DNA from: Strigops habroptila
Lineage: Eukaryota > Chordata > Aves > Psittaciformes > Psittacidae
Assembly: GCF_004027225.2 (NCBI RefSeq)
Contig: NC_044289.2
Coordinates: forward strand, 3,089,761 to 3,153,760
Direction: 5' to 3'
Length of the DNA: 64,000 nucleotides
Shown here piece by piece: positions 3,401 through 27,400 of this stretch. Numbering within the stretch: the first letter of the stretch is position 1; every line of letters begins with the position of its first letter. The position numbers and the translations under genes were made by a program. The notes under the pieces were generated by a model. That model worked only from the letters and a program-made list of their open reading frames with translations. It did no database searches and was not told the origin of the DNA.

Positions 3401-6400
3401 AGAGGCCTTTTTTGCTCAATAAACGTAAAGGAAGCTCCAAGTTCTGTTAAGGAGACGAAGCAGAGTATGGAAACCTAAATGCTACATGAAGTAGCCTTCT
3501 GCATGTAGCACTAAAAGTACAGAGGCTGTAGAACTGCAATACTATTTGTATTAAATAGCATCCTCGCTAGAGCATCTACCTACAGCAACCTTGTGCAGAA
3601 GCAATGCCTTGATCCATCCCTGGCAGCATTCAAGGCCAAGTTGGATGGGGCTTGGATCACCCTGCTCTAGTGGAAGGTGTCCCTGCCCGTGGCAGGGTGT
3701 TGGAACTGGATGAGCTTTAAGGTCCCTTCAACCCAAACCAGTCTGTGATCTCATGTATCAGGAAAACCAACATGGAAACAAAATGCTAAGGGTGAAAAAG
3801 AAACCAAGTTTAGGCCAGAAACCGAGCAATGCTGCCTGTCAGGCGACACAAGCCACCCTGCAGGGCAGAACGAGGTGCTTCAAGCTGCACTCTCCCATTC
3901 AAAACACCCCAGCAAGCAGGTTCAGCAGATGCACCCAGGTTAACTGCCATGTACTGTACCAGCATCCTTGCTGGGCAGTCAACAGCCATCTGACAAAGCC
4001 CTTGTGGGAAGTGGTTTTCTTGCAGTGCGATAGTCTGTTCTCACTAACACTTGAGAGATGAGAAACTCTGCAGGCTGGAAGAAGCTATTTACACCCTTGA
4101 TCCACCCCCTTTAGTGTGCTCCTAACTGGGTGAATTCTTCCTCCTAAATACTCGCTCCTTTTTGAACAAAGCCAGAAGGGTACCCATGCTTCAAAAAGAA
4201 GGATCTGAGCAATACAGACACCATTTCTTCCCAATTAGGCAGAGTATTATAATAATTCTCATCTAGAAATCCTCTTAGAGAATTCCCTTTAGAAGTGAGG
4301 TAAACCTGCTCTGGGAGCCCAGGGCCCTGCTGATACTCTGGGAGTATTCTGACAACTAAAGTCTGCAAATATTTCACTTTGGGAGGTTTGTACATCAGAA
4401 TCGTGTATTAAAGAGCTTATTAAATCAAAATACTCAATCTAACAGGCATTCAAATCTAACACTAGAGATCCAGTAAGTGGTTTAACATGTTAATCTAATT
4501 TAGCTTATTCTAGTTATTAGCTGCTCTTAAAATAAAGGCTCTGAGCAGATCTGTTTGTGCAGACTGGAAATGGATGTTGTGTGTGCACAGACTGCTCCTG
4601 AATCTCTAACCAAGATTTATTAGTAGCAGCAATTCATGCACTGGGGGGGATCTCAGTTTACTCTCCAGGTCTGACTGTAGTGCCCGTAGTGAGAAGGGCC
4701 AGACAAACAGGCCTTTGGAAAGCACATCATGATGAAGTCTGGGCCACAAACTCAAACTCCCTCTTTTAGGTTGCTTCTGTTTTATAAAGAGCCTTACTCT
4801 GAGCACAAGCACATTTTAGCTTCACTAATGACCATGAATATTATACAAACCCAGCCACTTCCTGCCGAAATACTGCAACTAAAGCAAGTGTCTTGGACAG
4901 AAGGACCTCAGATAAACCAGGTGACATCAAACCTCCAATGTAAGTGCTTGCAAAACTCTAGAAGCTGCTGCCCTAAACCCTTTCTCCCTACTCACCTGTC
5001 TGTGTTGACAACTGCATCAACTTCAGGGATGTTGGCTTTATGGGAGATTGCACTCAGCTCGTTGAGTTCCTGACTGTTTAAAAGCAGATACTTGTTCCTA
5101 CAGCAAGACATTTGGGGAGTAGGGGAGAAAAATATGATGAATTCAAGAGGCAAATGTGCAATCCCATGAAGAGTAAAGCCACACAGCCATGAGGGCTGCA
5201 GGAACAGGCAAGCACCTTCCACTTCTCTGACTCTGCTCCCCTTGCCACAGCACACTCCCAATGCAGGCCAGCTACCTGCTGTGTTGTGAGCCTCCTCCCA
5301 AACCACCAAATGCCAGTTTCAACACTGACCACCTTGGAGATGGTGGTTCTTTGCTGTTCAGGATCTTATGGTTTGGTTTTTAAAAATCTCAGCAACATTT
5401 TGCTGAATTGCAGAAGACTTAAATCAACTTTTTCCACAGCTTCCTACAGTTTTTCTCTGACTTACAGTGAGCATGCTCTTTATCAGTAGTAAATCTCAGT
5501 TAGAAAGCAGAAACTGCAAAAAAGTCCTCAATCATCGTGGTATTTTACTACTCTGAGCAAAGTGTTTACTCTGGAAAGATTAAAAAACTTCATGATAGGT
5601 AGAAAATAGAACAGGAATGGATACAAACCTCAGGAATTTGCACGGAATTCGTTATCAAATACAAAACTTTTCCTAATGAAAATCAATTAGTTTATTTGTA
5701 AAGTAAATTAAATGCAGACCAAGACTGACAAAGTAGAAATGTAATCCACAGGCTCCCTTTGAGGGACTCCCTGCCCAATGCCAGTGTGCTCCCTTAGAGC
5801 CCTCCAACTTCAAAGTGCTCAGAATCAACCACAAAGCTGTATCTTCAGGAACCCTATGGGAGCACAGGATGCAGTGATGAGTGTGAGGGTGTGCAAAGAG
5901 AACCTATTCATCATACATAGCAACTACACAGAAGATAAATTGTTAGACCAGAAAGGTGATGGGGATGACTTCTTGCTTCAAACACTGGCTTCCAGACAAG
6001 TGCCCACTGAGGCTGTCACATGGAGCTTGGATCTGGATCAACAGGTTTCTGTAATGAAAATACAGCCTCTCTCCCAGGCAACAGTCCCCCAAGTTTGGGT
6101 TTATACACAGTCTTACTGCATATTAGTACAGAAGTACTTGCTCTCACCTTGTCCTCAGCTAACTCAGCAGACCTGTGAGTTCATGTAACTCTTTATTTAA
6201 AACCCCTAACCAGATTCCACACATTCCACTTGCTCAAATGTTACAGCTGAAAGCTCTGTTTAAACAAGCCTGAGATCTTTGCAGTGGTCACTGTCGTGGT
6301 TTGAGCCCAGCTGGTAACTCAGAACCACACAGCCGCTCGCTCACTCCCCCCCCGCCCCCCCTTTTCTTCCTCCCCCCGCTCCCGGAGGGATGGGGAGGAG

Positions 6401-9400
6401 AATGGGAAGAATGTAACTCCCACGGGTTGAGATAAGAGCAGTCCCGCAACTAAGGTATAACACAAAACCACTACTGCTACCACCAATGATAATAACGATT
6501 AGTGAAATAACAAGGGGAGAGGATACAATTGCTCACCACCTGCCGACCGATACCCAGCCCGACCCGAGCAGTGATCTGGGCCTTCCGGGTAACTCCCCCC
6601 GGTTTATATACTGGGCATGACGTGCTGTGGTATGGAATACCCCTTTGGCTAGTTTGGGTCAGGTGTCCTGTCTCTGCTTCCTCCCGGCTTCCCCTCCTCC
6701 CTGGCAAAGCATGAGACTGAGAAAGTCCTTGGTTGGAATAAACATTACTTAGCAACAACTAAAAACATCGGTGTTATCAGCGTTGTTCCCAGGCTGAAAG
6801 TTAAAAAACACAGCACTGCACCAGCTACTAAGCAGGAGAAAAATGACTGCTATAGCTGAACCCAGGACAGTATCCACCCCTTATTCCATACCATTCACGT
6901 CATGCTCAGATCCCACATCTCTCAGCACACCATCACCCCTGTCCCATATATACACATATATATACACCCACACCCACACACAGAGAAAGATATCGTTCCC
7001 TAGTCCATGGACCAATCCCTGTAAAATTGCTGAACTCATCCAGTCCATGATGTCAGGCTCCATCTCTTGTAATAGTCTTTCAGGGCAGGAGGGACGGTAC
7101 ATAGTGTTGGGTTGTTGCCTGCTGATGATACCGCCAAACTCATCTGGTCACTGCTGAGCTCGTCTGGTTTCCTCAAAATTCATTCTTTGTTGAGGTGATG
7201 ATCGGAGGGAAGTCAGGGTCAATGGCTGGTGACCTGAAGATATCTAGCTGGTGGGCTATAAAAGTGTTATAGAGCAGGCAACAGCGTACAATTGAGTTCA
7301 TTGGCTGTTTTCCCCCAAAATCAAATCCCCTTGAGGTACACATCGGACTTCCCCATCTTCCCGCATTACCCACCAAGTATATCCAGGTCCCTGAGCAAAA
7401 GCAACCCCACGAGTGGGTTTGCCTTTACCTGAAGCAGGAATAACCCAGACTGTCTTCCCCAACAAATTCTTTATGTGCACCACAGGAACTTTATCCCCCT
7501 CTACAGTACGTAAAAGTTCTGATTGGGCTGGGCCAGCCCTGTTGGCAGATCCCCTACTGTTGACCAACCAGGTGGCTTTTGGTAAATGTGTATCCCAGTG
7601 TTTGAAAGTCCCACCACCCATTGCTCTCAGTGTAGTTTTTAACAGCCCATTGTACCGTTCGATTTTCCCAGAGGCTGGTGCATGGTAGGGGATGTGATAT
7701 ACCCACTCAATGCCATGCTCTTTGGCCCAAGTGTCTATGAGGTTGTTCCGGAAATGAGTCCCATTGTCTGACTCAATTCTCTCTGGGGTGCCGTGTCGCC
7801 ACAAGACTTGTTTCTCAAGGCCCAGGATAGTGTTCCGGGCAGTGGCGTGGGACACAGCATATGTTTCCAGCCAGCCGGTGGTTGCTTCCACCATGGTAAG
7901 CACATAGCGCTTGCCTTGGCGGGTTGGTGGGAGTGTGATGTAGTCAATCTGCCAGGCCTCCCCATACTTGTACTTCAGCCATCGTCCTCCATACCAGAGA
8001 GGCTTTAACCGCTTGGCTTGCTTAATTGCAGCACATGTTTCACATTCGTGAATAACCTGGGCAATAGTGTCCATCGTTAAGTCCACCCCTCGATCACGAG
8101 CCCATCTATATGTTGCATCTCTGCCTTGATGGCCTGAGGTGTCATGGGCCCACCGGGCTAAAAATAATTCACCCTTATGTTGCCAATCCAAGTCCATCTG
8201 AGCCACTTTAATCTTAGCAGCTTTATCCACTTGCTGGTTATTCTGGTGTTCCTCAGTGGCCCGACTCTTGGGTACATGAGCATCTACGTGGCGTACCTTC
8301 ACCACCAGGTTCTGCACCCGAGCAGCGATATCTTGCCACAATGCAGCAGCCCAGATGGGTTTACTTCTGCGTTGCCAGTTGCTCTGCTTCCATTGCTGCA
8401 ACCACCCCACAGGGCATTTGCCACCATCCATGAGTCAGTATAGAGATAAAGTACTGGCCATTTTTCTCGTTCAGCAATGTCCAAGGCCAGCTGGATGGCT
8501 TTCACCTCTGCAAATTGACTCGATTCACCCTCTCCCTCAGCAGTTTCTGCAACTTGTCGCAGGGGACTCCACACAGCTGCTTTCCATCTCCGATGCTTTC
8601 CCACAATACGGCAGGACCCATCAGTAAACAAGGCATATTGCTTTTCACTCTCTGACAGTTCATTATATGGTGGGGCCTCTTCAGCACGCGTCACCTCCTC
8701 TTCTGGTGACATCCCAAAATCTTTGCCCTCTGGCCAGTCCATGATGACTTCTAGAATTCCTGGACGACTGGGATTTCCTATTCGAGCTCGTTGTGTAATT
8801 AGTGCGGCCCACTTACTCCATGTAGCATCAGTTGCATGATGTGTAGAGGAGACCCTGCCTTTGAACATCCAGCCCAGCACAGGCAACCGGGGTGCCAGGA
8901 GGAGCTGCGCTTCAGTTCCAATCACTTCTGAGGCAGCTCGAACCCCTTCATAGGCTGCCAGTATCTCTTTTTCAGTGGGAGTGTAGCTGGCCTCGGATCC
9001 TTTATATCCCCGACTCCAAAAGCCAAGGGGTCGACCTCGAGTCTCCCCTGGAGCTTTCTGCCAGAGGCTCCAGGTAGGACCATTCTCCCCAGCTGCGGTA
9101 TAGAGCACATTTTTCACATCTGGCCCGGCCCGGACTGGTCCAAGGGCTACTGCATGAACTATTTCTCGTTTAATTTGTTCAAAGGCTTGTTGTTGCTCAG
9201 GGCCCCATTTGAAATCATTCTTCTTCCGGGTCACGTGGTAGAGAGGGCTTACAATCAGACTGTAATTTGGGATGTGCATTCTCCAGAACCCCACAACACC
9301 TAAGAAAGCTTGTGTTTCTTTCTTGTTAGTTGGTGGAGACATTGCTGTTATCTTGTTGATCACGTCTGTGGGGATCTGGCGGCGTCCATCTTGCCATTTT

Positions 9401-12400
9401 ATTCCCAAAAATTGAATCTCCTGTGCAGGTCCCTTGACCTTATTCCGTTTTATGGCAAAACCGGCCTTCAGCAGGATTTGGATTATTTTCCTCCCTTTCT
9501 CAAAAACTTCTTCCGCTGTATCACCCCACACGATGATGTCATCAATGTATTGCAGGTGTTCTGGAGCTTGCCCCTGTTCCAGTGCAGTCTGGATCAATCC
9601 ATGGCAGATGGTAGGGCTGTGTTTCCACCCCTGGGGCAGTCGGTTCCAAGTGTACTGGACGCCCCTCCAAGTGAAAGCAAACTGTGGCCTGCATTCTGCT
9701 GCCAAAGGGATTGAGAAAAATGCATTGGCAATGTCAATTGTGGCATACCACTTGGCTGCCTTTGACTCCAGGTCATACTGAAGTTCTAACATGTCCGGTA
9801 CGGCAGCACTCAATGGTGGTGTGACTTCGTTCAGGCCACGATAGTCTACTGTTAATCTCCACTCTCCATTAGACTTTTGCACTGGCCATATGGGGCTATT
9901 AAAGGGTGAGTGGGTCCTGCTGATCACTCCTTGGCTCTCCAGTCTGCGGATCAGCTTATGGATGGGAATCAAGGAGTCTCGGTTGGTGCGGTATTGCCGC
10001 CGGTGCACTGTTGTGGTCGCAATTGGCACTTGTTGTTCTTCGACCTTCAGCAACCCCACAACAGAAGGATCCTCTGAGAGACCGGGTAAGGTGGACAGCT
10101 GCTTAATTTCCTCTGTCTCCAAGGCAGCGATACCAAAAGCCCATCTATACCCTTTTGGGTCTTTGAAATACCCTCTCCTGAGATAGTCTATGCCAAGGAT
10201 GCATGGAGCCCCTGGACCAGTTACAATGGGGTGCTTTTGCCACTTCCTCCCAGTCAGGCTGATTTCAGCTTCCAGCATAGTTAACGCTTGGGATCCTCCT
10301 GTCACTCCAGAAATAGAAATGGGTTTCACCCCTTGATACCTTGATGGCATCAGAGTACACTGTGCACCGGTATCTACTAGAGCCTTATACTTCTGTGGGA
10401 CTGATGTGCCAGGCCATCTGATCCACACAGTCCAGTAAACCCGATTATCCCTCTCCTCCACCTGGCTGGAGGCAGGGCCCCTCTAATAGTGATCACAAAA
10501 TTCTCCACTTCTGTCTTGTAGAAAGGGATTAGTATTCCTTATCACAGGAGCTGGAGTAAAATCAGCTCTTTCGCTCCATCTGGGAAACTGCTCGCCAGAG
10601 ACTGGAGCAGCAGCTTTCCTGGGAGGATCATCCTTGACCATTGTTCTCCTCTTCAGTTCACGCACCCGTTGCTCCAGAGCTGAAGTAGGTTTTCCATCCC
10701 ACTTTCTCATGTCTTCTCCATGATCCCGCAGGTAAAACCATAGGGTGGCCCGTGGCGTGTACCTCGTATATTTTCTTTCTCGAGCAGTAGGGCGCCTTCT
10801 GTTGATAGCTGAGACATGGGTTGGTACGCGTGGAGAGCTGGATAGATCGGATAAATCGTCTCTCAATTGTTTGAACTCCTGGGACAGTTTTTCCACAGCT
10901 GAAATGATGGAAGGGGTGAGATTGTCTTCGAACTCTCGGAGTTGACGAATCAGGAAATCCACTGTTGGTGATACTCCGTCATTCCAGGTCATTGATGCCA
11001 ATGTGTGGGCATATGATGATGGCGCACTCCGTGTAAGTTTCCGCCACATGGGTCGTGTACATTCGACTTCATCTGGGTCTACGGATGTGTTCCTGGAATC
11101 CGGCCTACGATAGATCATCTCTATAATGGCTGATTCCCTCAGGGACTGGATGCCTTTCTCTATCGTGGTCCAGTTGGCTGAGCGATTCGTAATATCGTCT
11201 TTGTAGGGAAACCTTTCCTTCACAGCTGCCAGGAGCCGCCTCCAAAGACTGAGGGCTCGCTTCTCTCTTGCAATCGCTTTGTCAATTCCTCCTTCCTTAG
11301 CAAGTGATCCCAGCTGCTTGGCTTCCCTACCTTCTAGTTCATGACCGTCGGCCCCATTGTCCCAGCACCGGAGCAACCAGGTGACAATGTGCTCCCCTGG
11401 AAGACGGGTGAAATCTTTTCGCATATTCCGTAGTTCGGTTGAGGTCCGGGGTCGAGAAGTGACCTCTTCTTCTTCTTCCTCTTCCTCTGACCCACGTAGT
11501 AGTAACTCTTGTTCAGGTGCTGTTGCATATAGTAATGGCACTGGGTCTTCATCTTTCTTCGCTTCACGGGTTGCTCTTTGTGCCTTTCGTTTGCTTTTGC
11601 TTACAGGGGCAACAGACATTGTCACAAACTGGACATTTGGTTTAGCTGCAGTGTTTGTCACTGTGGTTGGAGTGGCTGCAGTGTCTGCCACTAGGATTGG
11701 AGTGGTTGCAATGTCTATTGCTGGGGTTGGTGCAGCTGTTGTGCTTGGGAGTTGAGTAACACCAACAGCTGCATTATCTGTTGCTGTCGGGGTTTGAGTA
11801 GCTACTGTGCTTGTCACTGGGGTTGGTGTAGCTGCAGTGCTTGGAGTAGCCATATTGTCTGTTGCTGTCGGGGTTTGAATAGCTACTGTGCATGTCACTG
11901 GGGTTGGTGTAGCTGTGGTGCTTGGAGTAGCTATATTGTCTGTTGCTGTCGGGGTTTGAGTAGCTACTGTGCTTGTCACTGGGGTTGGTGTGGCTGCGGT
12001 GCTTGGAGTAGCCACATTGTCTGTTGCTGTCGGGGTTTGAGTAGCTGTTGTGCTTGTCACTGGGGTTGGTGTAACTGCTGTATTTGAAGTTGGAGTAGTT
12101 GCGTTGTCTGTTGTGGTCAGGGTTTGAGTAGCTGTTGTGCTTGTCACTGGGGTTGATGTAGCTGCTGTACTTGGAGTAGCTGTGTTGACTGTTGTGGTCA
12201 GGGTCTGAGTAGCTGTGTGGTTCTGAGCCCGGCTAGCTCAGTCGGTAGAGCATGGGACTCTTAATCCCAGGGTCGTGGGTTCGTGCCCCACGTTGGGCGC
12301 CAAAAAAGAACTGTCGTGGTTTGAGCCCAGCCGGTAACTCAGAACCACACAGCCGCTCGCTCACTCCCCCCCCGCCCCCCCTTTTCTTCCTCCCCCCGCT

Positions 12401-15400
12401 CCCGGAGGGATGGGGAGGAGAATGGGAAGAATGTAACTCCCACGGGTTGAGATAAGAGCAGTCCCGCAACTAAGGTATAACACAAAACCACTACTGCTAC
12501 CACCAATGATAATAACGATTAGTGAAATAACAAGGGGAGAGGATACAATTGCTCACCACCTGCCGACCGATACCCAGCCCGACCCGAGCAGTGATCTGGG
12601 CCTTCCGGGTAACTCCCCCCGGTTTATATACTGGGCATGACGTGCTGTGGTATGGAATACCCCTTTGGCTAGTTTGGGTCAGGTGTCCTGTCTCTGCTTC
12701 CTCCCGGCTTCCCCTCCTCCCTGGCAAAGCATGAGACTGAGAAAGTCCTTGGTTGGAATAAACATTACTTAGCAACAACTAAAAACATCGGTGTTATCAG
12801 CGTTGTTCCCAGGCTGAAAGTTAAAAAACACAGCACTGCACCAGCTACTAAGCAGAAGGAAAATGACTGCTATAGCTGAACCCAGGACAGTCACTTAAGT
12901 GGGAATATCATCTACAGAGATTTTATTGGAAAACCTGGAGTGATTCCTGGGCAAACAACGTCCTGCATGGAGGATTTACAATAAGTCAGCTTTACCCTTC
13001 TGCTTACAGTATTTCCAGCAGTTCCCCAGTCTCAAAGCTAATACTGCACAATCAAAAAGGCTGGTATTTCCATCCAGTACTAGATAAAACCTACACGAAG
13101 TATCACTGTAGATCTGAGCAGCTAGGCAAGCAGTGCTGTATGCCTCAAAGGCAGATGTTTGTAAGCAATAGACCACCACCTTGCAGGACTCAATTAGAGC
13201 AACAGGACACTGTACTGCAAGATATGATTCTACATGTCAGAACAGAGCAAAGAGTACCTCTGTAGCAGCAGTACAGCATTTAGAGATCACTATTCCAGCA
13301 GACCCAACCTTTGCAAGTATGCCTTTTGAAGGCAAACAGAAGCTTTCTTCCTATTTCCAACCTAGCTTCCCAATGGCTAGCTGACAGATAATTGTTCCTT
13401 TAACATTTTCCCATCCAGTTTCATCAGGTTTTTTCTATTGCTGGCATTCAGACAGCAATCATGTCTTCCCAGCCTTTTGAAAAGGCAAAGGAGTCCTGAT
13501 TAACCTCTTCAGAGGTTGCCTTTCACCTTGATCTTCCAACCTGAACATGTCCTCACAGGGTACGTGTGCTCTTGCGAGCACACTGGCTCACTACCAACTC
13601 TCAGGGAGAAGACAGATAAAGAGCAGCATGAAAGCTGCCTCCCTATTCCCTCAGCCAGAAAGTGCTCACTCATCGTATAAACGTTTCAATTCATTGCAAC
13701 ACAAAGCAAAATGGGCTATTTTAAATCATCAACAGACATATTAAGACATGCCCACTGCAAGCACGTTCTTAACCTCTTCACAGCAGGAGCTGAAAGGCAC
13801 ATGAACATGGAATCAAGTTTAAGGACAGTACAATGTTCCATGCTTGCGACACCCACTGTAACTGCAACCAAACACACCGAGCCTCAATCTCCCACAGCTT
13901 TTCATACTCACTCATGGTGATCACTAAAGCTCTGAAGAAGCCTCAAGAACTGGATCTTTAAAGTAATGTCCTAAAAAAAGAGACAAGAAAGGACAACAGA
14001 TTTTGCTTTAGTATTTGTGGATATCATTAGTTACCAAAGCCGACGTGAAACAGCTGAACTGAAAATCTATCCAAACCAAACCCGCTTGGGCAGCGGAGCA
14101 AGCGACCTGCATAAATGGAGAAGGCTGCACTTTGCAGGCTTCCCAAAATAGAACAGAAGTGGAAACTGCCTCCAAGCCTGTGCATGTAATGGTTAATAAT
14201 TTCCCACCCCCCAAAAAGACCGGACTGTGATTCATTTTGTGTTCTGTGCCTCTCCTTGCTAGACCCACTAGCTATCATGCCCTTAATTCTGGTCACCTTC
14301 CACCTTTGGCCTCCAGGGACCACAGAACTTACCCTTTCCCAGTTCCCAAACTAATGGAGAGTGAAGAGGCTAACTTGCCAACATGAACCGAAGATAAAGA
14401 GTTAAGCAAAACCAAGTAATTCATCAAAAATACATGAACGCACATCTCCATTTATTATCCAAGCACCCAGTTACTCAATACAGCTGCCCAGAAGTAAATG
14501 ATAGGATAAAAGTCCAATATAACATTTAAGAAGTTACTCACTGGGCTACAATCACAATTCTGGTTGTGTCCATGCAGAACCAGGGCTGATGCTGAATGCT
14601 TTCTCCAGATCAGTTTGTCAAACAAGTTATTGAGGCCAGGAATCAGTTTGAACTCTGCTATCATTTTATGAACCTGGAAAGCAAGAGAAGCACATACCCC
14701 ATATGGACAGAACAGTCTGGTAAACAGATGGGCACAATTATGTCATCCTCTGACAACAGAAAGAGTGAATTCCTTTAGCAAACAGCATGTGTTTGTGGTT
14801 ACATGCACACTGACCATGGCGTATCACTAGAGCAGTTTCCATTTGGTGGAGATGGATAGACACCAGACATTTTGGGAGAAAGCTGTTACCCAATGCTTCA
14901 GTTAACCACCCTGCCCCTCTGGAAGCACAAGTTTTCATTCCTATTTTTGTTCACAGTGTAGTTGATTGTTCTTTTGATGGTTATAGCCCCATCTATATGG
15001 AAATCACATTCCTGCTGCTGGACATCTCCAAGTATCACAGCTGAGGAAGCATGCAGCTCCTTCTCACCTCAGCCACACTACCCTGACTGACTGCAAAGCT
15101 TGGAGCCCCTTGGTGCTCCCTCACTTTAAAATGCTCTCAAACACTTTGGTCTAGTCACAAGCCTCCAACAGCAGCAGCTCTGAGGAATCTCTCTGAACAA
15201 AGCACTCCCTACAGTCCCTCAGTGGCCAGCGTGGCACAAGCACAACAGACGAAACCAAGTGTACAAGCTGCATCTATAAAGCTGCATTCTTGCGGTGAAA
15301 TCAGGCAGGGATCATTATCTGACTCCATACAATGGGAAAAAACCTCCTCCCAACAGATCCATGCTCTGGTAGTTTTATGCCCAACAGAAACAGTACTTCT

Positions 15401-24400: not shown

Positions 24401-27400
24401 ACAAATCCAAACTTAGTCCTGTCTCTGCTGAAGTTGCAGAGGTGAATACTGGCAGCTCTACAATCAAACCCCACCGGTGTCAAAGTTACCTTGACAAAAA
24501 ATAGTTGCATTTACCCTGAAGAAATAACAACACTTGTATAAGACAATCTTCCACTAGCAAGTTTTAAAGTATTTGAGCCTGTAAAGAGTGTAATTTTACA
24601 TGCATCCAGGTAACAACAAAGATGGCTATCACACATCTCCCACAATAATGAGTCTCTAGCAATCATCTGCAAGAGATGCAAATTTAGCATCCCTAAGTGT
24701 TGCTGGGCTTCAGAATACATTTTTGGTCCAGACATAACCAAACATAGTTGCTCCAGGTTTTAAACTCACCACTAAAGAGCAAGCCACTGCTTCTGTGCAT
24801 GCACCTTGTGTGTGTTGAACATCCACACTTACACAGAGGTGAAGTGTTGTTTTCATTTCTATGTCAGGAATGTAGCGGTCAGCTTTCCAAGACTAGGGCT
24901 GTGGGTCTGATAGCAGAGGTTCAGCTAGTCCAGGTGCAGACTGATCTTTAGCTGTTCTAGCAGTTTATTTTAAAATGAGAGTTAACCCCTGGAAGGAACT
25001 GATGATTTCTGCAAGAAGCATTGCAAAAAGCCCCTAGTTTTAAAATTCAGTTTAAAATCAAGAGCAATGTAGGCATCACCTGCTTGAGTCATGCCAACTG
25101 GGAATATACTTGTTACAACCTACTCTCTCTACTTGTCCCAATTTAACTTGTTCTTTTAATGAACCAGCTACCCAGACACAGAGGAAAACACCTGATAGCA
25201 CTGGACGCACTGCCCATTTTAAGCACTGACAAATAAATAAAAGGCAACTTTAAAGATGTTCTGGGTTCAGCTGTAACAGTTGTTTATCTTCCCAGTAGCT
25301 GGCGCAGTGCTGTGTGTTGGCTTTAGTCCGAGAACAATGCTGGTAACACACTGATGGTTTAGTTGTTGCTCAGTAGCACACACTCTGATCAAGCACTTTT
25401 CAGTCTCATGCTCTGCCATGAGGAGGGACACAAGAAGCCGGGAGGGAGCAGAGCCAGGACATCTGACCCCAACTAGCCAAAGGGGTATTCCATACCACAG
25501 CACATCATGCTCAGTATAGAAACTGGGGGGAGTCACCTGGAAGGCCCAGATCGCTGCTTGGGTCAGGCTGGGTATTGGTCAGTGGGTGCTAGGCAATTGT
25601 ATTGTGAGGCACTCGAGTTTTCTGAGTATTCATTTCTTCTCTTGTTGTTTCCTATTATCATTATTGTTGGTATTCTTTCTATTATCACGGTATGTTCATA
25701 TCTCAATATTCATTTGATTCTCCTCCCCACTCACCCCCAGGAAAAGGGAGAGGTGAGTGAGTGACTGTGAGGTGCCACATTACTGGCTGGGTTTAAACCA
25801 CAACGAAAGAGGAATATACCTTTTATAGAATCCCAGACTGGTTTGGGTTGGAAGGCAGCTTAAGATTATCCAGATCCAATCTCCTGCCATGGACACCTTC
25901 CACTAGACCATGTCACCCAAGCCCCTGTCCAACCTGGCCTTGAACACTGCCAGGGATGGGGCAGCCACAGCTTCTCTGGGCAACCAGGGCAGAAGGAGCA
26001 GAAAGGGAGCTACAAGATCTTATTTCTTGGAATGGGGTTGCATTCAGATCCAAGGTCCATGAGGCTCCTATATCGGTTCATGTGTTTGTACTCTCAGGTA
26101 ATATTTTATATACATTCATATGAAGGCAGGAGACACAAATGTGCTTTCTTGATGTAAAGGCTGCCAGAATCCAAAAATATTTTAAGGAGTCTCCTGTCAC
26201 ACATTATAGCATACAGAGCACACTGCAGATTGAGTGTCCTTCAAAGCTACTCATGTTTCACAGCTCAAAGTGCAACTGCAACGTGGAATCAGCACATGGC
26301 ATACGTAGAACCAGCAGATTACACTCCTTCCCTTTCAAAAACACATAGAGCTGGCTTCTACAACTGCCTTTAACCACATTAAACCCACTTGTATCAGCCA
26401 AATCTCTGGCCATAGTGCCAGGTAATTAAAGGGTAGCTGATACCATCTCCAGCCCAAGTTAAAAAACCCAAACCAAAACCAGTTGACAGGATACCAGTGA
26501 TTAAACCAGTACTGATTTCAAAACAACATAATCTAAATACAAGTTTTACTTAAGTAAAGGCATGCTAGGAGAGAAGTAGCAAAGACAATGTTTAGTTAGA
26601 CTGAAAAAAATAAAAGGGGGAGTGTCAATTTGTTCACTGGAAAACACAAAACATACATGTCTAATGAAAGCTGAAATCCCAGAGTCTGCCACCATTCAAT
26701 TGAGCAAATGGGTATTTGTGTAATGCTGAATAAAGATAAATGTCTCCAGAAACCTTGGAGGTCTGTTTAAAATCTCTTCCATAGAGGAAGCAGTCCTTAT
26801 AGCATGCCAGCTGTAGACAACCTGGCTAAAGGATTGCACTAGTGTGCTTAAAGAACCACCACACATCCTTCAGTGGTAAGGGAAACGGTCAGTGCTCTCA
26901 TAGCAACTGTAGTAATCTCACAACTAGAAAGCATTTGAAACTGTCTGCATTGAGAACATAGAGGTCTCACCTTTTTTACCTTAAAACCAGACTGCTTGAA
27001 GGAACAGCCAGGTCTTCTATATCATATAAGAAAAAGCACCTCACTTTTGATGATGGAATACCTCAGAAAACAGGCCCTTTTCACATTTTGATTAACAGAA
27101 ACAGGCACAATTCTAATGTTTAACATTAAATCAGTAAAGTCACTTTATAGCTTTTATTTAGAAGCTTCAAAGGTCTCAAAGACCTCACAGATTTCTCACT
27201 GCTATGACTATCATCCAGAAATCTTTTGATATTGTTGAAAAACACTCACATCGACTCCTCCAAATAAGTCAAACGTGTATGTATTTGGGAAAGTGGACTC
27301 TTGAGCAGCTTTTTTATCTTCTGTAACAGATGCCACTGCTTCCATTGAAAGAAGTGGGGAAATTTCCTGTATGCAAAAGAAGGTTCAAAAAGAAAACTGC

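Follow-up and report, generated by a model that had tools for sequence, protein, structure and literature searches.

The analysed window, a stretch of 64,000 nucleotides on contig NC_044289.2 of Strigops habroptila, carries a provirus in reverse orientation, the features of which are collected in Table 1. A pair of LTRs ending in TG..CA, together with a duplicated target site, identifies it as an LTR retroelement or endogenous retrovirus. Over 579 aligned sites, of which 578 are LTR bases and one is a flanking base, the two LTRs differ at 3. The LTR end TGTCGTGG begins directly after the spacer AAAAAGAAC. Reverse transcriptase, RNase H and integrase (Pfam RVT_1, RNase_H and rve) are all encoded in pol, while no env-like frame was found among the open frames of 90 amino acids or more in the general frame list. 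Compared with solved structures only, a 162-amino-acid piece of the reverse transcriptase (RT) had its best PDB matches in 7kse, 7ksf and 7o0h, which are labelled as protease-RT-RNase H or Pr125Pol and which we take to be foamy virus proteins. Judged on this piece, the RT appears to be closest to that of foamy viruses, which would place the element in Class III (spuma/ERVL-like). A tRNA-Leu primer is typical of ERV-L. Since the primer-binding site (PBS) of the window provirus matches tRNA-Lys(CUU), the element was kept out of ERV-L proper. A further LTR piece of the same family, inverted and 80% identical, is located at positions 25257-25602.

Table 1. Features of the window provirus and of the tRNA copy next to its 5' LTR (positions in the window).
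Feature	Position	Strand	Basis
Target-site duplication GTCAC, left	6287-6291	.	sequence
3' LTR	6292-6869	-	blastn against the window, sequence; differs from the 5' LTR at 3 sites
Integrase part of pol (Integrase_H2C2, rve)	7298-8431	-	open-frame list, Pfam
pol open frame, RVT_1 and RNase H	8299-10461	-	open-frame list, Pfam; RT piece against solved structures
gag-like open frame, no Pfam match	10483-12147	-	open-frame list, Pfam
81-nt tandem repeats in gag	11773-12214	-	TRF
16-nt exact match to inverted U5 (12338-12353), located between gag and tRNA copy and ending in tRNA G1	12212-12227	+	sequence
DNA copy of tRNA-Lys(CUU) nt 1-73, isodecoder GGGAC/TCCCA	12227-12299	+	ARAGORN, Rfam RF00005, isodecoder comparison
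tRNA position 58, T instead of A	12284	+	sequence, isodecoder comparison
18-nt primer-binding site	12285-12302	-	sequence; same 18 nt in ordinary members
CCA of the mature tRNA (PBS 5' end in viral sense)	12300-12302	+	sequence; absent from host gene L055
9-nt spacer between LTR and PBS, AAAAAGAAC	12303-12311	-	sequence
5' LTR	12312-12889	-	blastn against the window, sequence
Target-site duplication GTCAC, right	12890-12894	.	sequence

The 18-nt length of the PBS is ascribed to m1A58 of the primer tRNA, at which copying is held to stop. In the window, the match to the primer runs on through the entire tRNA. ARAGORN called a tRNA-Lys(ctt) at 12227-12302 and Rfam matched its tRNA model (RF00005, model positions 1-71) to 12227-12299 with 61.6 bits and an E value of 6.3e-11; each of the two found a single tRNA in the whole 64-kb window. 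The only difference between this copy and the GGGAC/TCCCA isodecoder is 58A>T. A reading of the letters without database searches (hereafter the sequence-only reading) had proposed that a complete primer tRNA-Lys(CUU), CCA included, was captured flush with the PBS of a provirus with intact LTR ends and a target-site duplication, with a single A to T difference at position 58, and the analysis bears it out in each of these respects.

The same reading had suggested comparison with the host's own tRNA-Lys(CUU) genes. The only plain tRNA-Lys(CTT) gene among 30 loci read (L055, C28:301746-301819) has A58, lacks CCA and is followed by a T run on its 3' side; this gene belongs to the GAGAC/TCTCA isodecoder, not to the captured GGGAC form, no gene of which was seen among the matches of the search with tRNA and spacer (best 40 of 43 candidates), so that the genomic base at position 58 could be read directly for the GAGAC form only. 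That a tRNA gene was inserted here, or that an LTR landed beside one, might be entertained because the copy is full-length and receives the score of a tRNA gene. However, where a tRNA gene has no encoded CCA and a genomic 3' flank, the window copy is followed by CCA and by the LTR spacer, the captured copies show the same 8-9 nt spacer and LTR end as ordinary members, and no common genomic sequence lies ahead of them; we therefore give this explanation practically no chance. As in over-extended strong-stop DNA, the window copy extends from the CCA past position 58 toward the tRNA 5' end and is joined to U5.

On its inner side, the window copy reaches the 5' end of the tRNA and then continues with about 15 nt of inverted U5, after which gag follows via a 4-nt match. 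When mapped on the ordinary member L040, about 966 nt are missing between the tRNA copy and the gag repeats, comprising the leader and probably the start of gag. The proposed read-through to the tRNA 5' end is supported by the mature ends, both of which are present; the join itself is no simple stop at this end. Base pairing between U5 and the tRNA 5' end was rejected as a cause of the U5 insert: 36 of 300 shuffles were equally stable, so that the duplex is not clearly above chance, and the best similarity between LTR and tRNA is found elsewhere in the tRNA and does not exceed chance, with 109 of 1000 shuffled LTRs reaching the same score.

To put the window copy in context, the genome (1.15 Gb, 89 contigs) was searched twice. 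With window positions 12200-12420 as the query, the best 40 of 1525 candidates were scored and 30 were made into loci. Longer pieces of tRNA-Lys than in ordinary members were found at L002-L008, L022 and L024, with differing left neighbours except for one common to L004, L006 and L007. The window junction was not met again among the best 40 of 1525, as none of the other 39 matches extends to the left of query position 28. With the window tRNA plus spacer as the query, the best 40 of 43 candidates were scored and 30 again made into loci; nine of the ten scored matches without a locus cover query positions 54-85 only, as expected of ordinary T58 copies, and the tenth covers 33-79. Among the 30 loci read from the best 40 of 43, 26 are proviral and carry tRNA-Lys(CUU) copies that extend past position 58. 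In 24 of the 26, spacer and LTR follow (with an altered CCA at L068), whereas the copy at L054 is followed by spacer and leader and that at L072 by an inverted PBS and leader. The four loci outside this count are the plain gene L055, together with L067, L077 and L079. No match to the element was found within 1.5 kb on either side of L067 and L077. At L079 (oriented positions 1501-1759), the U3 portion of an LTR is joined to tRNA nt 24 or 29 to 71, without CCA, and GCGTG is present at either side; it looks as though the end of the tRNA had been used for integration. Fifteen of the 26 captured loci are located on contig C25 (37.4 of 1148.6 Mb), perhaps a W-like refuge. Some loci have a second identifier for 10-kb stretches (L031 is L053, L032 is L052, L033 is L056, L034 is L059, L035 is L058, L036 is L057, L037 is L076, L038 is L080 and L039 is L075), and L040 is the ordinary member that served as map reference.

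The 26 loci were counted as 23 distinct junctions because L056, L057 and L058 share one junction in three different flanks and L054 and L061 appear to have a gag junction in common. The frequency of the event in the family, which the sequence-only reading had left unstated, is accordingly at least 23 junctions in this genome, the window being one of them. According to the search's own match starts, which may shift by a few bases through a chance base or a stretch common at the join, the match begins at tRNA nt 1 or 2 in 11 of the 23. The remaining starts are at nt 5 (L066, L074), 7 (L053, L056-058, L069), 8 (L059), 10 (L071), 13 (L063), 30 (L076), 35 (L075, L078) and 47 (L080). Captured copies can multiply, as the one junction at three places (L056-058) and the possibly shared one of L054 and L061 indicate, and all copies could conceivably descend from a single ancestral capture the left side of which was rearranged later. 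This is very unlikely given that two isodecoders were captured, that the 23 distinct junctions have match starts ranging from nt 1 to nt 47, that 11 of them are at nt 1-2, and that the LTR parts are about 80 to 99% identical to the reference element.

We examined position 58 in the captured copies by comparing each row with the better-fitting isodecoder. In the 28 of 29 rows that cover this position, T was found in 10 and A in 18, and C or G in none. When only one row per junction in proviral context was kept (leaving out L057, L058, L061, L067, L077 and L079), T58 was present in 9 of 23 junctions, again without any C or G, while among the 215 other A sites of these rows, 2 are T and 5 are C or G. 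The excess of A>T at position 58 (9/23 versus 2/215) gives a Fisher p of 6.9e-9 if shared ancestry is ignored, and for all 28 rows the figures are 10/28 versus 2/275; since the captured copies share ancestry in part, Fisher values overstate their independence. Both A58 and T58 copies occur with each of the two isodecoders, L080 being too short to assign. According to PMC4787781, RT passes m1A with misincorporation, most strongly of dATP (a T signal) before U, and a low C signal is reported for m1A before G. The base after position 58 in tRNA-Lys(CUU) is G. The A>T pattern is an indirect sign that m1A58 may be present in the tRNA of this host.

In ordinary members of the family, about 966 nt separate the PBS from the point of the window join, and the PBS region reads, in tRNA sense, ..GTTATCTCAACCTTTCG[T/A]GCCCCACGTTGGGCGCCA. 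A leader-only query was used to sample them; the best 40 of 554 candidates were all on contig C1, with 39 of the 40 matches tied in score, and were compared as 53-nt pieces. In this sample (best 40 of 554), tRNA positions 54-57 (TTCG) are found just inside the PBS in all 40 copies, and position 58 is T in 29 and A, the match to the tRNA, in 11, but never C or G. It is the sole common polymorphism in the 36 columns, the other 35 having at most three variants each among these 40. An earlier sample of 30, with 22 T58 and 8 A58, was ranked by a T58 query and is hence biased. In 29 flanked copies, six common variable sites nearby were tabulated against position 58; five of them show every one of the four combinations and the sixth shows three, which fits repeated rewriting of position 58 from the tRNA; recombination between two masters may also account for the combinations. 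Two of the 40 ordinary copies (L082, L083) begin their PBS with TGGTCCCC instead of TGGCGCCC.

Because T58 is common in ordinary members, T58 alone is no proof of misinsertion in the window copy. The proposal of misinsertion at m1A58 is strengthened by the A>T excess at this position in 9 of 23 junctions (versus 2/215) and qualified by the T58 of 29 out of 40 ordinary members. The read-through could have been real and T58 could have been taken over from the leader of the element itself, by heteroduplex repair or by template switching back and forth, a view that agrees with the core of our preferred explanation and differs on T58 only. The leader could supply the base, given T58 in 29 of 40 ordinary copies (best 40 of 554) and in 22 of 30 of the T58-biased sample, and the route is open at L080, one of the nine T58 junctions, which retains its own leader. 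However, five of the nine (L051, L054, L060, L071 and L073) join gag or pol, not the leader; tRNA bases flank position 58, so that each of these cases would require a pair of switches only a few bases apart; and the dimorphism of the ordinary copies is itself restricted to A and T. We regard a leader origin of T58 as unlikely, although less so than the other alternatives, and T58 of the window copy as likely due to misinsertion at m1A58.

The partners beyond the tRNA were identified by mapping on L040. Gag is joined at L051, L054/L061, L059 and L073, pol at L052, L056-058, L063 and L071, inverted gag-pol at L060 and L076, an inverted LTR or leader at L069 and L075, and the element's own leader at L080. 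By eye, the left side of L064 looks like an inverted spacer plus PBS and that of L072 like an LTR end. A 62-nt inverted piece of pol ends 18 nt before the tRNA at L062, the rest of this flank matching nothing identified, and mapping on L040 gave no identification for the flanks of L066, L068, L070, L074 and L078. A 5S rRNA partner was considered for L066, where blastn aligns 54 nt at 78% with a part of L054 assigned to 5S by Rfam, and was dropped, as L066 1380-1510 has no Rfam match at E values up to 1. Full-length 5S rRNA copies lie away from the tRNA at L020 974-1092, in a member with an ordinary PBS region, and at L054 1939-2057.

At two loci, the tRNA adjoins a host RNA or a sequence resembling one. 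L053 (1188-1501, corresponding to L031 8502-8815) carries a copy of 7SK RNA (RF00100, 287 bits), the 5' end of which immediately adjoins tRNA C7, and the far end of the Rfam match overlaps pol. At L065, an SRP(7SL)-like RNA (RF00017, 34.4 bits, below the gathering score of 70) overlaps the first 7 tRNA bases with its 5' end and gag with its far end. The accessible part of a review on RNAs enriched in retroviral particles names 7SL, 5S rRNA and some tRNAs (PMC5086612) and does not mention 7SK.

The letters at the joins speak for short-homology joining in some cases and against it in others. At L052/L032, the tRNA 5' end GCCCGG meets the same letters at a pol site of the window's element; L040 does not have these letters there. 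A second pol site shares CAGTCGGT, corresponding to tRNA positions 13-20, with the tRNA and was used by L056-058 and by L063, which contains the other isodecoder and joins exactly at this stretch. L056-058 join to the left of four further bases with the AGCT of the tRNA kept, as expected if an overlong strand had paired there with a bubble. Against short homology, L034 and L037 have a short filler instead of a clean match. A short palindromic insertion at L039 8438-9470 (L075) consists of an inverted LTR piece, a partial tRNA beginning at about nt 35, and an LTR. Both of its outer ends are U3 ends, and the 5-bp duplication, CGAAC, is exact.

Exact 5-bp target duplications are present at the window, L032, L036, L038 and L039, and four of five bases match at L031 and L037. 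No exact duplication was found at L034 and none at L071. The 10-kb stretches of L033 and L035 contain no further LTR of matching orientation, and the 1.2-kb pieces for L065 and L061 (L122, L123) contain no LTR. Chimeras of tRNA and element might in principle be assembly or library artefacts; against this stand the five copies with exact target duplications, the distinct flanks and the decay of many copies, which we read as largely at CpG, making an artefact highly improbable. The mature tRNA ends, the junctions, the target duplications at some loci and the restriction of position 58 to A and T can all be read directly in the DNA.

Overlong strands that were joined elsewhere, often by short homology, before integration are the best explanation for these observations. 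During plus-strand strong-stop synthesis, RT would copy the still-attached primer tRNA-Lys(CUU) past m1A58, in the window copy probably placing an A opposite the modified base that is read as T58, and would run on to the tRNA 5' end. The resulting overlong 3' end would be unable to finish the usual second-strand transfer at the PBS. In the window, we infer that about 15 nt were next copied from a plus-sense U5 template and that the strand was then linked, through the 4-nt match, to the minus strand within the gag repeats, at the cost of the approximately 966 nt of leader and probably gag start, before integrase inserted the joined product. The same kind of event would have occurred many times in the family, ending at different points and involving gag, pol, inverted LTR, 7SK or an SRP-like RNA as the partner. 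With mature tRNA ends, LTRs, a target duplication and 22 further distinct junctions, the earlier proposal of read-through to the tRNA 5' end followed by integration is supported, and we are highly confident that primer read-through and joining elsewhere explain the window copy, a confidence that does not extend to misinsertion at its position 58.

More tentatively, and with somewhat less than an even chance in our estimation, the family may use a PBS-independent salvage of second-strand transfer, in which run-off tRNA copies pair with minus-strand ends at any short match, including ends from packaged 7SK or SRP-like RNA copied to their 5' ends, and position 58 of ordinary copies is rewritten from the tRNA in each cycle. 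If true, the germline copies of the family would document the frequency with which m1A58 was passed and misread. The series of germline proviruses indicates that the m1A58 stop leaks in nature and that its passing often leaves A>T; it also points to the fate of the overlong strand and to the host RNAs that stood near enough for copying. A mistake of reverse transcription seen so far chiefly in vitro has thereby left a readable record in germline DNA, and both the leakiness of m1A58 and the choice of transfer site become countable in the genome of any species that carries young elements.

Related products have been described in other systems. Among the over-extended strong-stop products of HIV-1 (P1 and P3-P5), P1 reaches the tRNA 5' end (with unmodified tRNA) and P5 the anticodon loop; such products are described in vitro and in cells whose TRMT6-TRMT61A methyltransferase is mutant, and a role in transfer is assigned to P2-P4 only (PMC13191261). 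As in the present family, tRNA-Lys is copied past m1A58 in P1 and P5, whereas here the overlong products were joined elsewhere and integrated in the germline. In lentiviruses and spumaviruses, the same source describes a primer over-extension sequence adjoining the PBS (PMC13191261), which the tRNA positions 54-57 just inside the PBS of our ordinary members resemble, except that position 58 is dimorphic (A/T) and mostly T in the latter. The accessible text of PMC11181671 contains nothing on m1A58. In literature on tRNA read-through or capture in endogenous retroviruses, over-extension, circle junctions, TRMT6, 7SL/7SK chimeras and bird elements, searched mostly outside subscription journals, we found no comparable germline series.

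Reverse-transcribed tRNA has also been seen in retroviral DNA. PMC12220202 reports tRNA-Gly beside an HIV-1 provirus, cites tRNA-Gly between the LTRs of an MMLV circle and, with work cited there, lists tRNA-Asp/Glu inserts in nef. The HIV-1 case is likewise linked with deletions, but this and the nef inserts are a few cell-culture cases with non-cognate tRNAs outside the PBS (PMC12220202). The cloned retroviral circle resembles our copies in having a reverse-transcribed, primer-like tRNA at a retroviral DNA end and differs in being one circle with a non-cognate tRNA minus four 5' bases, not an integrated provirus with a tRNA inside the PBS.

LINE-1 elements have neither a primer tRNA nor LTRs. 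Their chimeras with small RNAs, described in PMC13174262, are similar to the present copies in that a retroelement is joined to small host RNAs. Taken together, over-extended strong-stop DNA and tRNA inserts were already known; the copies described here differ in that the cognate primer was read through, at the PBS, in integrated germline copies, and many times.
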